Source of the DNA: a virus
Strand: one strand, 5' to 3'
Length of the DNA stretch: 26,792 nucleotides
Virus record (IMG/VR): IMGVR_UViG_3300025086_000190
Coordinates: 1-26,792 of that record
Made by a program: the position numbers and the translations under genes. Shown one piece after another: positions 3,464 to 6,819 of the stretch; positions within the stretch are counted from its first letter, which is position 1; the number at the start of each line of letters is the position of its first letter. The notes beneath the pieces were generated by a model. That model did not search any database, had not been told where the DNA came from, and saw only the letters and a program-made list of their open reading frames with translations.

Positions 3464-3790
3464 TTAAAATGGTAAGTTCTCATTAGTGTCATTATCAATA
3501 ACAAGATTTTCTTCTAAATTAATATTTTTTACATTTAAAGTATTAAAAAACTTGCCCTTCCATTCATTTGATTTAATATAAAACTCTATTGTAGCATAAC
3601 TATCTAGCTTAACATATTGTTCGTGAACAGCAATTCTTTCTTTACCAAATATCTCAAACTGATATTTATTATCAAAATCTGTTCCTGCTTCTATTATTGT
3701 TATCAGCATTTTTTCATAAGGATCACCGCCCTTTTTATTCTCAATAGTTTCTATTTTTTTGTCTATTATTTTACCTCTTATTTTATACAT
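3464..3790 (-). CDS. DUF3127-like single-stranded DNA-binding (OB-fold) protein, 108 aa
   Basis: The protein has the layout of Bacteroidota DUF3127 / SSB-like proteins. It starts YKIRGKIIDKK, then KKGGDPYEKMLITIIEAG, a strand with YQFEIFGKERI, a central ASYATIEFYIKSNE-like strand and the family's hallmark WKGKFFNTLNVKNI (about residues 77-90). The last ten residues, DNDTNENLPF, form an acidic tail ending in P-F, the signature by which SSBs recruit other replication proteins. It likely binds single-stranded DNA during phage replication and recombination. It lies 12 nt downstream of a putative annealing protein, the usual SSAP-SSB pairing. Confidence 0.7.
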   Translation of the reverse strand: MYKIRGKIIDKKIETIENKKGGDPYEKMLITIIEAGTDFDNKYQFEIFGKERIAVHEQYVKLDSYATIEFYIKSNEWKGKFFNTLNVKNINLEENLVIDNDTNENLPF

Positions 3791-3802
3791 TTTATTTATT
3801 TT

Positions 3803-4198
3803 TTAATTATTATTTCTTTTAAATGATTCGCTTTCATCTTCAGCAAAAACACCAAGTTCGTAAAAACCTGCTAATTTTAAAACTGCTCGGCTCATTGCTC
3901 TTTTTTCTGCCATCTCCATTACATACCAACTATTAGTGTTTCCATCTTTAAATGTATTGCCTTTTAAAGCACTACCAAATGTTTCTATAAATTTTTTATT
4001 TGCTTCACCTATTGCTTTAACTACTGCAAAATTAGGCTCACATTTAATAACTTTATATTCAATAACAATTTCCATATTAGCCTGAATCTTGTCAATTCCT
4101 GCACGAGTTATAATTGTGTAATGTTGATGCTTAAACACATCTTCATCAGTTAAATTATTTTCTACAAATAATCTATTTAGTATTTCTTTTTTTGTCAT
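3803..4198 (-). CDS. Putative single-strand annealing protein (Rad52/Erf-like), 131 aa
   Basis: The diagnostic part is the C-terminal half: NSWYVMEMAEKRAMSRAVLKLAGFYELGVFAEDE (about residues 90-123). It resembles the helix that Erf/Sak/Rad52-like phage annealing proteins carry as A-E-T-R-A-x-x-R-A-L. The N-terminal half is beta-rich (HYTIITRAGID, MEIVIEYKVIKCEPNFAVVKAIG), as expected for the Rad52-like fold. At 131 residues it is a minimal version. The gene directly follows the HTH regulator and precedes the SSB-like gene, a classic annealing-protein/SSB arrangement. I infer the function from this pattern and context, so confidence is moderate; an uncharacterised DNA-binding protein is the alternative. 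Confidence 0.5.
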   Translation of the reverse strand: MTKKEILNRLFVENNLTDEDVFKHQHYTIITRAGIDKIQANMEIVIEYKVIKCEPNFAVVKAIGEANKKFIETFGSALKGNTFKDGNTNSWYVMEMAEKRAMSRAVLKLAGFYELGVFAEDESESFKRNNN

Positions 4199-4200
4199 AA

Positions 4201-4410
4201 CTAAAATGGTTTTATAAATTTAACAATATCCAAGTCAATAAGTTCACAAAGCCTTTCAGCATCATTTACACTTAGTTTGCTTGGGTTATTTATTTTCTTT
4301 AATGTTGTGGGATAAGACCAATTCAATGCTTTCGCAATATCCATCTTATTCATTTCCTTAATAGACATAGCAATCTTTATTACTTGCCTACGCATCTGTC
4401 TTGAATTCAT
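4201..4410 (-). CDS. Small HTH (XRE-like) regulator, 69 aa
   Basis: A compact helix-turn-helix protein: KMDIAKALNWSYPTTLKKIN (about residues 23-42) gives the HTH. It is followed by a Cro/C1-like SKLSVNDAERLCELIDLDIVKFI segment. The frame stays open further upstream, but the only other start is TTG at 4435-4437, which falls inside a likely promoter element. I therefore chose ATG at 4408-4410, preceded by an A-rich stretch. It is the first gene of the leftward arm, beside the divergent control region. Autoregulation or control of the rightward promoter is the obvious hypothesis; the repeats at 4575-4608 are candidate operators. Confidence 0.65.
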   Translation of the reverse strand: MNSRQMRRQVIKIAMSIKEMNKMDIAKALNWSYPTTLKKINNPSKLSVNDAERLCELIDLDIVKFIKPF

Positions 4411-4434
4411 ATATTTATTTTTATAGTTAAAGCA

Positions 4435-4464
4435 CAATAATAGTAAATATATTTAACAAAACAA
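4435..4464 (-). promoter_or_regulatory. Candidate leftward flavobacterial promoter
   Basis: On the minus strand, TTG (4462-4464) lies 19 nt before TATTATTG (4435-4442), one mismatch from the Bacteroidota TAnnTTTG box. Transcription would start near 4428, leaving a short leader before ATG at 4410. In such AT-rich DNA partial matches are common, so this is tentative. Confidence 0.4.
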
Positions 4465-4533
4465 AAAGATTATTTAATACTTATTAACAATCACAATGTT
4501 AATAACTTATAAACATTCTTTTCTATTTTATTG

Positions 4534-4563
4534 TTTGTATATAAAGTTTTTTTTATATATTTG
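4534..4563 (+). promoter_or_regulatory. Rightward flavobacterial-type promoter
   Basis: TTTG (4534-4537) is followed after 18 nt by TATATTTG (4556-4563), a full match to the TTTG/TAnnTTTG promoter of Bacteroidota. The expected start site, near 4570, lies just before the 17-bp tandem repeat and about 38 nt before the first rightward ATG (4608). The control region 4411-4607 contains no other gene. Confidence 0.75.
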
Positions 4564-4574
4564 TAGAACAAAAC

Positions 4575-4608
4575 AATTAAAACAAGTATTAAATTAAAAC
4601 AAGTATTA
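4575..4608 (+). repeat. Two perfect 17-bp tandem repeats in the leader of the rightward operon
   Basis: AATTAAAACAAGTATTA occurs at 4575-4591 and immediately again at 4592-4608; the last A is the A of the start codon ATG. A third partial copy (AACAAGTATTA) stands at 4827-4837. The repeats lie downstream of the promoter, so they would be in the transcript leader; operator or leader/translation element are both possible. Confidence 0.85.
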
Positions 4609-4754
4609 TGAATAATTCAACTAAATGGCAAGTATGGGTAAACAAGGACAGCCAACCTTTAATAATAAATTTACCTTTTAATAGTGTAAAAAATGCTCAC
4701 GAATTTATATGGGAACAAATAGGCATAAGACCTAGTAGCATTAGTAAACTATAA
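4608..4754 (+). CDS. Hypothetical protein, 48 aa, first gene of the rightward operon
   Basis: A 48-residue frame starts at ATG 4608, directly abutting the tandem repeat, and ends with TAA at 4752-4754. It begins MNNSTKWQVWVNKDSQPLI, then NLPFNSVKNAHEFIWEQIG, a small mixed alpha/beta pattern with two tryptophans early. I recognise no family. It is the promoter-proximal gene, and its stop codon lies only 4 nt before the pistol ribozyme, so ribozyme cleavage would leave this gene alone on a short 5' RNA. Confidence 0.6.
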   Translation: MNNSTKWQVWVNKDSQPLIINLPFNSVKNAHEFIWEQIGIRPSSISKL

Positions 4755-4758
4755 TTAA

Positions 4759-4826
4759 GGTCGTTTGAGCGACTAAAAATAGACATTAGGCTCAAAGCGT
4801 CCCCTACTAGCTAGGGGGGTTGTATA
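4759..4826 (+). ncRNA. Pistol-type self-cleaving ribozyme
   Basis: The segment matches the pistol fold element by element. P1 is GGTCG (4759-4763) with CGACT (4770-4774). Its 6-nt loop TTTGAG (4764-4769) pairs with CTCAAA (4791-4796), forming the pseudoknot. An 8-nt A-rich strand ending AAATAG (4775-4782) follows P1. P2 is ACA (4783-4785) with TGT (4821-4823). TTAGG (4786-4790) leads into the pseudoknot, and GCGT (4797-4800) follows it, as in the catalytic G-C-G-U of the known env25 pistol. P3 is CCCCTA/TAGGGG (4801-4806/4812-4817) with loop CTAGC, then GG/T. By homology, cleavage is expected between G4819 and T4820. Segment lengths (5-bp P1, 6-nt loop, 8 nt, 5 nt, GCGU, P3, GGU) equal those of env25 as I remember it; the position equivalent to A32 is G4789 here. 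P3 has no U tract after it, so it is not a terminator. Confidence 0.9.
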
Positions 4827-4837
4827 AACAAGTATTA
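4827..4837 (+). repeat. Third copy of the leader repeat core, just 3' of the ribozyme
   Basis: AACAAGTATTA repeats the last 11 nt of the 17-bp repeat at 4575-4608. It begins 7 nt after the predicted ribozyme cleavage site and lies 16 nt before the next ATG (4854), so the cleaved downstream RNA would carry it near its new 5' end. Confidence 0.7.
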
Positions 4838-4853
4838 TTAAAAATATAGAAAA

Positions 4854-5018
4854 ATGAAAAAAGAATTTAGAAAAATTTATAAAAAAGAAGAATTATTACT
4901 TTTAGATAAAGAATTTTTAATCAAGGCAATTATTTCACTAGAAAGAGATAGATATAATTTGGAAGAAGAATTATACGAAACCAAGAAATTTTTTTCAGAA
5001 ATAATGAAAAAGAAATAA
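4854..5018 (+). CDS. Hypothetical charged helical protein, 54 aa
   Basis: The frame runs from ATG 4854 to TAA 5016-5018. The protein is almost entirely predicted helix with a heptad-like spacing of Leu/Ile and Glu/Lys (KKEELLLLDKEFLIKAI, then RDRYNLEEELYETKKFF), suggesting a short coiled coil. It is the first gene after the ribozyme and is preceded by an A-rich leader, typical of Bacteroidota initiation. Its stop is 2 nt before the next ATG. No family recognised; small coiled-coil phage proteins of this kind often act by binding a host protein, but that is not shown. Confidence 0.55.
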   Translation: MKKEFRKIYKKEELLLLDKEFLIKAIISLERDRYNLEEELYETKKFFSEIMKKK

Positions 5019-5020
5019 TT

Positions 5021-5107
5021 ATGAGAAAGTTTAATTACGCAATATTATCAATTTGTTTAGCCTATATGATAGGCAGATTTTTAACCACATTAATTTTTGG
5101 GATATGA
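5021..5107 (+). CDS. Single-helix membrane micropeptide, 28 aa
   Basis: ATG at 5021 opens a 28-residue frame ending in TGA 5105-5107. After MRKFNY the sequence is hydrophobic (AILSICLAYMIG, R, FLTTLIFGI), consistent with one membrane-spanning helix with a single arginine in it. The start is 2 nt after the previous stop, and the stop overlaps the next start as ATGA (5104-5107), which supports translation. The function is unknown. It is the second such micropeptide in the window (compare 320-409). Confidence 0.5.
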   Translation: MRKFNYAILSICLAYMIGRFLTTLIFGI

Positions 5108-5343
5108 TAAAAGAATATATAATAACAGGCGAAGGATATTACAATACGCAAGTTGCAAGTCCAACATCTTTAAAGCCAATAGGAGATATTACTTGGCAAA
5201 GAGGAGCTATACACTTTAAAGGCACTCCAGAGCAATTAGACTCCTTTATAGATACATTAATACAAGATGAGACCTATTTTAAATATAGAGACCATTTTAC
5301 TAAAGATGAATTTAATAACCTAGAAAGAATACCTATATTATGA
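5104..5343 (+). CDS. Hypothetical protein, 79 aa
   Basis: Start ATG 5104 is chosen because it forms an ATGA overlap with the preceding stop; the frame extends upstream only to a TTG inside the membrane micropeptide. The protein has a beta-rich N-terminal part (EYIITGEGYYNTQVASP, ITWQRGAIHFKGT) and an acidic helical C-terminal part (PEQLDSFIDTLIQDETYF, KDEFNNLERI). I recognise no family. It is coupled to the downstream winged-helix gene by another ATGA (5340-5343). Confidence 0.6.
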   Translation: MIKEYIITGEGYYNTQVASPTSLKPIGDITWQRGAIHFKGTPEQLDSFIDTLIQDETYFKYRDHFTKDEFNNLERIPIL

Positions 5344-5576
5344 TAATAAAATTAAAATGGGGCACACATAAACAGATAGTTTATGATTACCTAATGAAAG
5401 GAAACAAAATAACTACTAGAACCGCTATGATTGATCTGGGGATTGGAGATTTACAGGGTACGATAAGAGATTTAAAGAAAGCAGGGGTTCTGATTAAAGA
5501 TAAGTATATCAGCGTTCCAACTAGATATGGTAAGAACGCAACAGTAAAAGAATACTGTTTAGCTAGTTTATTTTAG
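5340..5576 (+). CDS. Winged-helix HTH protein, 78 aa
   Basis: The protein resembles the small winged-helix HTH proteins of phages: THKQIVYDYLMKGNKITTRTA forms helix 1 and the start of helix 2. AMIDLGIGDLQGTIRDLKKAG gives the recognition helix, and VLIKDKYISVPTRYGKNATVKEYCL forms the beta wing. It probably binds DNA as a phage regulator. It is the last gene of the rightward operon and ends 9 nt inside the end of the opposing leftward gene (5568-5576), with no room for a terminator between the converging transcripts. Confidence 0.6.
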   Translation: MIIKLKWGTHKQIVYDYLMKGNKITTRTAMIDLGIGDLQGTIRDLKKAGVLIKDKYISVPTRYGKNATVKEYCLASLF

Positions 5577-6448: not shown

Positions 6449-6819
6449 TTCTTTTTAATTTTTTCAATCGTTCTTCCCGCAAAATATGATCCGTAAACTA
6501 CTAATAGCAATTGGGTGTAGATTGGACCATACATTGGGTTCATTGTGAATCTTCCTACGTTACCATCAAAAAATGATATTAAAACAAATATCATAGTTAA
6601 AAAAGCAAGTGTCATTGGTCTGATATTTGCAGGTAACCAACCCGCTTTAGCATCAGCTTCCCAACGCCTTGTTACTTGTTGTTGTGCATTAGCTTCAGCG
6701 TTAGCTAAGATTTCTTGCATCTTATTTTTTAAAGCTAGTTTTTCTTCTTTAGTTGTTACCACTTCATCAATGATTTCTGAAGCGTTTCCTATTATAGATT
6801 TAAAAATTCCCCCTAGCAT
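6445..6819 (-). CDS. Holin, 3-TM (gene-transfer-agent holin type), 124 aa
   Basis: Holin of the 3TM family. The N-terminal 50 residues are an amphipathic, coiled-coil-like Glu/Lys/Ala-rich helix (TTKEEKLALKNKMQEILANAE). They are followed by the family signature R-W-E-A-D-x-x-x-x-x-W-L-P-A-N-I-R-P, one hydrophobic helix (MTLAFLTMIFVLISFF) and a second one (IYTQLLLVVYGSYFAGRTIEKI). It would form lesions in the inner membrane that release the M15 endolysin encoded 1 nt upstream. A second, different holin-like protein lies at 7916-8152. Confidence 0.75.
   Translation of the reverse strand: MLGGIFKSIIGNASEIIDEVVTTKEEKLALKNKMQEILANAEANAQQQVTRRWEADAKAGWLPANIRPMTLAFLTMIFVLISFFDGNVGRFTMNPMYGPIYTQLLLVVYGSYFAGRTIEKIKKK

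Follow-up and report, generated by a model that had tools for sequence, protein, structure and literature searches.

A pistol ribozyme between the small genes of a phage operon

For most small self-cleaving ribozymes of bacteria and phages, the biological role is not settled. What might such an RNA be doing directly behind the stop codon of a small phage gene? We address this question at a pistol ribozyme on the + strand of a virus record of 26,792 bases (IMGVR_UViG_3300025086_000190), which was analyzed whole and is called the window below. Taken alone, the window adds one good pistol more. Related phages with and without the ribozyme (window, L006 and L008 versus L011; L and G numbers are our own handles) and a swap of ribozyme class in a further relative (G177) make a role in gene separation directly testable.

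Identity and setting of the ribozyme

Comparison of the whole window with all 4227 Rfam families returned a single match, the pistol model RF02679, at 69.4 bits against a gathering threshold of 34.5 (E 5.8e-11) and over the full length of the model (1-68/68; Table 1). A duplicate search of the window record revealed no second pistol copy. The initial annotation had proposed a pistol at this place, and the covariance model, above its gathering threshold by a factor of two and matched end to end, upholds that identification. The proposed span of 4759-4826 is right at its start and overshoots the model end, 4824, by 2 nt. Each of the elements described initially (P1 hairpin, pairing of its loop with CTCAAA, GCGT, P3 and G/T junction) can be located in the sequence. 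P1 joins G4759-G4763 to C4770-U4774 through four Watson-Crick pairs and one G-U. P2 was correctly given as 3 bp followed by a mismatch, with 4783-4785 pairing to 4821-4823 and the mismatch at G4782/A4824. Together, the model score, P1 and a 6-bp pseudoknot with covariation, G40-C41-G42, a purine at position 32 and the G-U junction G4819-U4820 confirm the feature, as far as sequence and structural model can, as a genuine, textbook pistol ribozyme and a new member of a known family. By homology, G40 (4797) would act as general base; the roles of G40 and G42 are taken from PMC10946891.

A doubt raised initially over the G at position 32 (G4789) proved unfounded, as G32 is natural and active. The Rfam consensus at this position is g, and 98 parsed phage pistols divide into 53 with A and 45 with G. 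The A32G variant of env25 retains near wild-type activity (PMC6154101), and the crystallized Alistipes putredinis pistol has G32 (PMC11300833).

When pseudoknots are ignored, the minimum free energy structure is a competing nested hairpin, in which 4762-4770 pairs with the pseudoknot strand and GCG; the z value of only -0.95 says little about the pistol, whose pseudoknot lies outside such a nested energy model. Within 4762-4799, the P1 5′ strand and loop may thus form one long hairpin in place of the active fold, an alternative that many pistols probably share.

Table 1. Features of the ribozyme and its operon in the window.
Feature	Position	Strand	Basis
Divergent small HTH protein	4201-4437	-	Weak Cro/C1-like matches, below Pfam cut-off
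TATATTTG, likely promoter of rightward operon	4556-4563	+	Sequence reading; same element in relatives
Promoter-proximal leader, ACAAGTATTA at 4582 and 4599	4570-4607	+	Exact repeat search
48-aa small gene, upstream of ribozyme	4608-4754	+	ORF list
Pistol ribozyme RF02679	4759-4824	+	Rfam covariance model; P1 starts 4 nt past stop codon
P1 hairpin	4759-4774	+	Sequence reading, Rfam; covariation
P1 loop UUUGAG, pseudoknot 5′ strand	4764-4769	+	Sequence reading, Rfam; covariation
Linker UUAG	4786-4789	+	Sequence reading
CUCAAA, pseudoknot 3′ strand	4791-4796	+	Pairs 6/6 with loop 4764-4769
GCGU (G40, C41, G42, U43)	4797-4800	+	Sequence reading and Rfam; G40 = 4797, G42 = 4799
P3 hairpin, 6 bp (4801-4806 with 4812-4817), 5-nt loop	4801-4817	+	Sequence reading
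Predicted cleavage step G/U	4819-4820	+	Alignment to RF02679
Second leader, ACAAGTATTA at 4828, directly 3′ of cut	4828-4853	+	Exact repeat search, alignment
54-aa ORF, first gene past cut	4854-5018	+	ORF list
28-aa ORF	5021-5107	+	ORF list
78-aa ORF, ATG 5107, conserved in L006, L008, L011, L012	5107-5343	+	Comparison
Winged helix-turn-helix protein, PF14090 HTH_39	5340-5576	+	Pfam

The sequence TATATTTG fits TAnnTTTG, the Bacteroidota -7 element; TTTG (4534-4537) and TTG (4531-4533) lie upstream of it, and from these letters it is likely the promoter of the rightward operon. Such an element, together with a neighboring metallophosphoesterase whose only relative in named genomes belongs to a Flavobacteriales MAG (63% identical), agrees with the initial description of the phage as flavobacterial-type. 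The small HTH protein encoded divergently is a possible regulator of the operon. Genes for an SSB-like protein, a replication initiator and a DNA methylase are also divergent from it, and it is from the HTH and replication genes that we infer an early operon. Portal, protease, tape measure and terminase genes occupy the remainder of the window.

The ribozyme lies 4 nt after the stop codon of the 48-aa gene and 29 nt before the start of the 54-aa ORF, so that a cut at 4819/4820 would, as initially predicted, divide the transcript between the 48-aa gene and the four downstream ORFs. All three window copies of ACAAGTATTA fall within the two leaders, and positions 4826-4861, just past the cut, match the promoter leader of the syntenic phage L006 at 94.6% identity. 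The 48-aa protein matches nothing in PHROG or Pfam and has four relatives in other phages among the viral contigs, at 64-71% identity; a search of viral contigs for relatives of the 54-aa ORF found none.

Pistols and their neighbors across phages

Applying Rfam to the records behind the fetched loci yielded 112 pistols in 72 phage records, 101 of them distinct, the window included. Across 98 distinct phage pistols, both P1 and the pseudoknot covary, with up to five pair types, and for pseudoknot pairs 2-5 the covariation is far above that of 1000 shuffles. In a seven-sequence alignment that includes the window, 98.7% of P1 and pseudoknot cells are paired, compared to 90.9% after shuffling and 16-40% after sliding. 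P3 contributes two compensatory differences between the window and G005/G007. The pairing of the P1 loop with CTCAAA, proposed initially from the window sequence, is thereby kept through compensatory changes in related phage contigs.

We scored a pistol as following a gene if a co-directional ORF of at least 40 aa ended -8 to +25 nt from P1. This was the case for 55% of 94 non-redundant pistols with flanks, when random places gave 10% on the same strand and the opposite strand gave 12%; a stop accompanied by a start 10-60 nt downstream was found for 41%, compared to 5% and 3%, respectively, all figures being approximate because gene calling was crude and missed genes shorter than 40 aa. The pistols that fail this simple test (about 45%) comprise short genes, fragments and other contexts such as GOLLD and tRNA arrays. 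The slot is also seen in tandem. Seven pistols lie within about 4.3 kb of G147 (L315, G147:24500-32000), with genes of 68, 94, 202, 120 and 123 aa filling the gaps between the first six, one per gap, and with the stop codon 1-2 nt ahead of P1 at several of them. Further arrays hold five pistols (G012) and six (G155).

Some pistols keep other company. In three large phage contigs (L267, L271 and L296, from G121, G117 and G174, respectively), the pistol lies shortly past a GOLLD RNA match on the same strand (117-123 bits, below the gathering threshold of 150) and is followed by a conserved stretch, tgcatgaagtttgtagggtatacgcc.... In L268 (G141) it comes directly after an array of about 12 tRNA genes, again on the same strand. 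The pistol of L275 (G118; 478-735 and 1501-1562) is preceded, at a distance of under 1 kb, by a Hatchet-like match that scores 48.5 bits against a gathering threshold of 51.

For relatives of the window itself, 80 phage loci were collected through relatives of the neighboring phosphoesterase gene. Rfam pistols occur in 0/39 and 3/41 phosphoesterase-locus records, and those three lie elsewhere in their contigs. A pattern scan identified L006 and L008 as combining the synteny of the window with a pistol at the same place. The window aligns to L006 over 3749-4620 (78.5%), 4757-4876 (77.5%) and 5104-5343 (83.8%), with no alignment across most of the 48-aa ORF or of the 54-aa and 28-aa ORFs. Because the alignment covers the ribozyme and not most of the flanking ORFs, the ribozyme appears as an island amid swapped genes. 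The first gene of the operon is different in each of the window, L006, L008 and L011. L011 matches the window at 86-88% identity on both flanks and lacks a pistol; at its junction the promoter leader (AACAATTAAAACAAGTATTAAATTAAAAAT) occurs a second time.

A 62-aa cassette gene (MENLELFKIETSLRDTLEATR...) is the first ORF after the promoter in both L011 and L012, whose operons are otherwise different. Its occurrence in this first slot of both reads as a sign of cassette exchange.

Hammerhead-type motifs in the same slot

G177 (L329/L332) is distantly related to the window phage (71% for the phosphoesterase, 31% for the portal and 32% for the terminase). Here the stop codon of the 48-aa homologue is followed by CTGATGAGTCC...GGACGAAACACCC TTCG GGGTGTC/AGTTAT (slash, predicted cut), a complete type I hammerhead motif. 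It is the third of three tandem type I motifs, at 6777, 7129 and 7391 of L332, with one per small gene; the other two follow the two genes ahead of it. Each has CUGANGA, GAA, three stems and an NUH cleavage triplet, and all three stems differ between copies with pairing intact. The leader AATTAATTTAAATAAAACTAAAATG comes after the promoter and again after the first two predicted cut sites. We call the G177 copies hammerhead-type motifs rather than filed members of a family, since their Rfam scores are below gathering (22.6 versus 34 bits for RF00163, 26.4 versus 56.3 for RAGATH-1-hammerhead).

A structural scan of the 2.4 Mb of fetched loci found type I motifs in 17 of them, a count that includes overlapping loci; after mononucleotide shuffling of this sequence it found none. 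At 12 type I sites (some loci overlap), the upstream ORF stops between -4 and +16 nt of the core, and the next ATG lies 63-89 nt after the core start. Hammerhead-type motifs share operons with pistols in G019, G023, G116 and G133. Scans for types II and III gave two matches elsewhere, one of them in phage Perkons. This cultured Psychrobacillus phage (MT325768; L164 9352 and L112 1501-1573) has an unannotated Rfam-positive pistol between small genes and an ArdA gene nearby; its hammerhead-type motif, of type II, comes about 6 kb after the pistol.

The structural scan recovered no type I motif in phosphoesterase relatives L011-L090. Rfam gave no match in 17 phosphoesterase-gene relatives, which is weak evidence for hammerhead absence because Rfam at E 0.05 also missed the G177 motifs in a 55-kb search. 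No ribozyme was recognized next to the 48-aa gene in its other three carriers. With L011 and three of the four other 48-aa carriers having no recognized ribozyme, the element is not essential. The presence of a hammerhead-type motif in place of a pistol after a homologous gene may be regarded as a natural experiment, and suggests that selection acts on the cut and not on the class of RNA.

Possible roles and relation to known systems

We consider it probable that co-transcriptional cutting makes separate mRNAs from an operon of exchangeable small genes. The RNA would fold as RNA polymerase passes and cut itself between G4819 and U4820. Of the two products, the upstream one would consist of the leader and the 48-aa gene, its 3′ end folded into P1, pseudoknot and P3 just past the stop codon and terminating in a 2′,3′-cyclic phosphate. 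The downstream product would open with a 5′ hydroxyl at UUGUAUAAACAAGUAUUA... and have a short leader of its own, similar to that at the promoter, before the four following genes. Decay and translation of each mRNA could then proceed without regard to the other, and small genes could be swapped in or out with their neighbors unaffected. Pistol cleavage is an internal phosphoester transfer that yields a 2′,3′-cyclic phosphate and a 5′ hydroxyl (PMC4604425). With this chemistry known for the class, we infer that the window copy cleaves itself, that it cuts in vivo and that the phage benefits. This separating role is favored by the model score, the covariation, the slot between stop and start, the persistence of the ribozyme amid changing flanks and the hammerhead-type motif in the same slot. 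We also lean, by a little, towards a broader proposal in which pistol and hammerhead classes are interchangeable punctuation, with one ribozyme per stop codon, a shared leader per cut and single-gene mRNAs from one promoter.

Stop codons of phage pistols cluster at -5 to +6 nt from P1, and those of hammerhead-type motifs fall in stem I, which is tighter than separation needs. Such spacing would suit a translation-coupled switch, in which the terminating ribosome covers P1 and cutting occurs only if the upstream gene is poorly translated, so that the ribozyme senses translation. We regard this as unlikely, however, as compact phage operons are usually packed tightly, and pistol cleavage, which for Lysinibacillus sphaericus exceeds 10 per min in simulated physiological conditions (PMC4604425), is so fast that it leaves only a short time for control.

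The ribozyme and leader could also be kept mainly as short homology islands for the exchange of small-gene cassettes, with cutting incidental. Near-identical ribozymes do occur in dissimilar flanks, both within and between contigs: three pairs are 96-100% identical with 350-nt flanks that have no similarity or at most 33 nt of it (G172 pair, G159/G172, G025/G011), and one is 94% identical with flanks matching over 32 nt only (G126_54325/G166_10075). Moreover, the window, L006 and L008 have promoter, ribozyme and distal gene in common and the genes between them not. But compensatory changes preserve the fold and not the sequence, and a hammerhead-type motif standing in that slot offers no homology to a pistol, which makes this explanation quite improbable. 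Sensing of translation and service in recombination are not mutually exclusive readings; inactivity is the exception.

The short, mismatched P2 might mark the window copy as a decayed, inactive relic. This is very improbable, as every core position is intact, P1, pseudoknot and P3 show compensatory changes, and the same P2, GACA/UGUA, recurs in G005 and G007; three of four P2 pairs are found in 30/98 phage pistols, and we accepted the window P2 on that footing against an expectation of about 4 bp. Finally, a transcription terminator or attenuator mistaken for a ribozyme is scarcely credible: a stable GC hairpin, P3, does lie between genes, but no U-tract follows it and the terminator scan has no match there, on which grounds an intrinsic terminator was rejected, and the pistol model scores 69.4 bits.

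Separation of small-gene mRNAs by cutting is thus the reading that we prefer, and a rule for annotation follows from these data: ribozymes should be searched for directly after stop codons in small-gene operons of phages. By 2015 it had been noted that pistols are frequent near phage genes and that ribozyme classes lie close to the genes of other ribozymes. The literature examined, which the 2015 discovery paper lies outside, holds no description of pistols abutting stop codons or of one-gene-per-pistol arrays, and within the same limit we found none of an exchange between pistol and hammerhead-type motif after a homologous gene; we claim no priority for any of these.

Compared to the RF02679 pistols described previously (Weinberg 2015; Harris 2015, PMC4604425), the window RNA shares all core nucleotides, P1, pseudoknot, P3, the 2-nt G-U junction and a phage neighborhood, and as an RNA it shows no difference. 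The pistol of Alistipes putredinis (PDB 6R47), a member of the Bacteroidota, has G32 as in the window and is active in vitro; the window copy, known from sequence, has a 3-bp P2 plus mismatch. The pseudoknot-containing hammerhead (PMC11300833) has a secondary structure nearly identical to that of the pistol, but its core loop is CUGAUGA where the window has the linker UUAG. We rejected this class for the window, in which a CUGANGA core loop is absent and no hammerhead match was found. Similar to the arrays considered here, tandem hammerheads flank ardA in Agrobacterium tumefaciens, placing several self-cleaving ribozymes between small phage-related genes on one polycistronic RNA, and these cut in vitro and in E. 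coli (Perreault 2011, PMC3088659). The ribozyme there is a hammerhead, whereas the window has a pistol, and that study left the purpose open. The theta (HDV-like) ribozymes of gut phages are likewise self-cleaving phage RNAs, for which processing of a longer transcript has been proposed, but they belong to another class and are tied to tRNA genes (PMC10879173).
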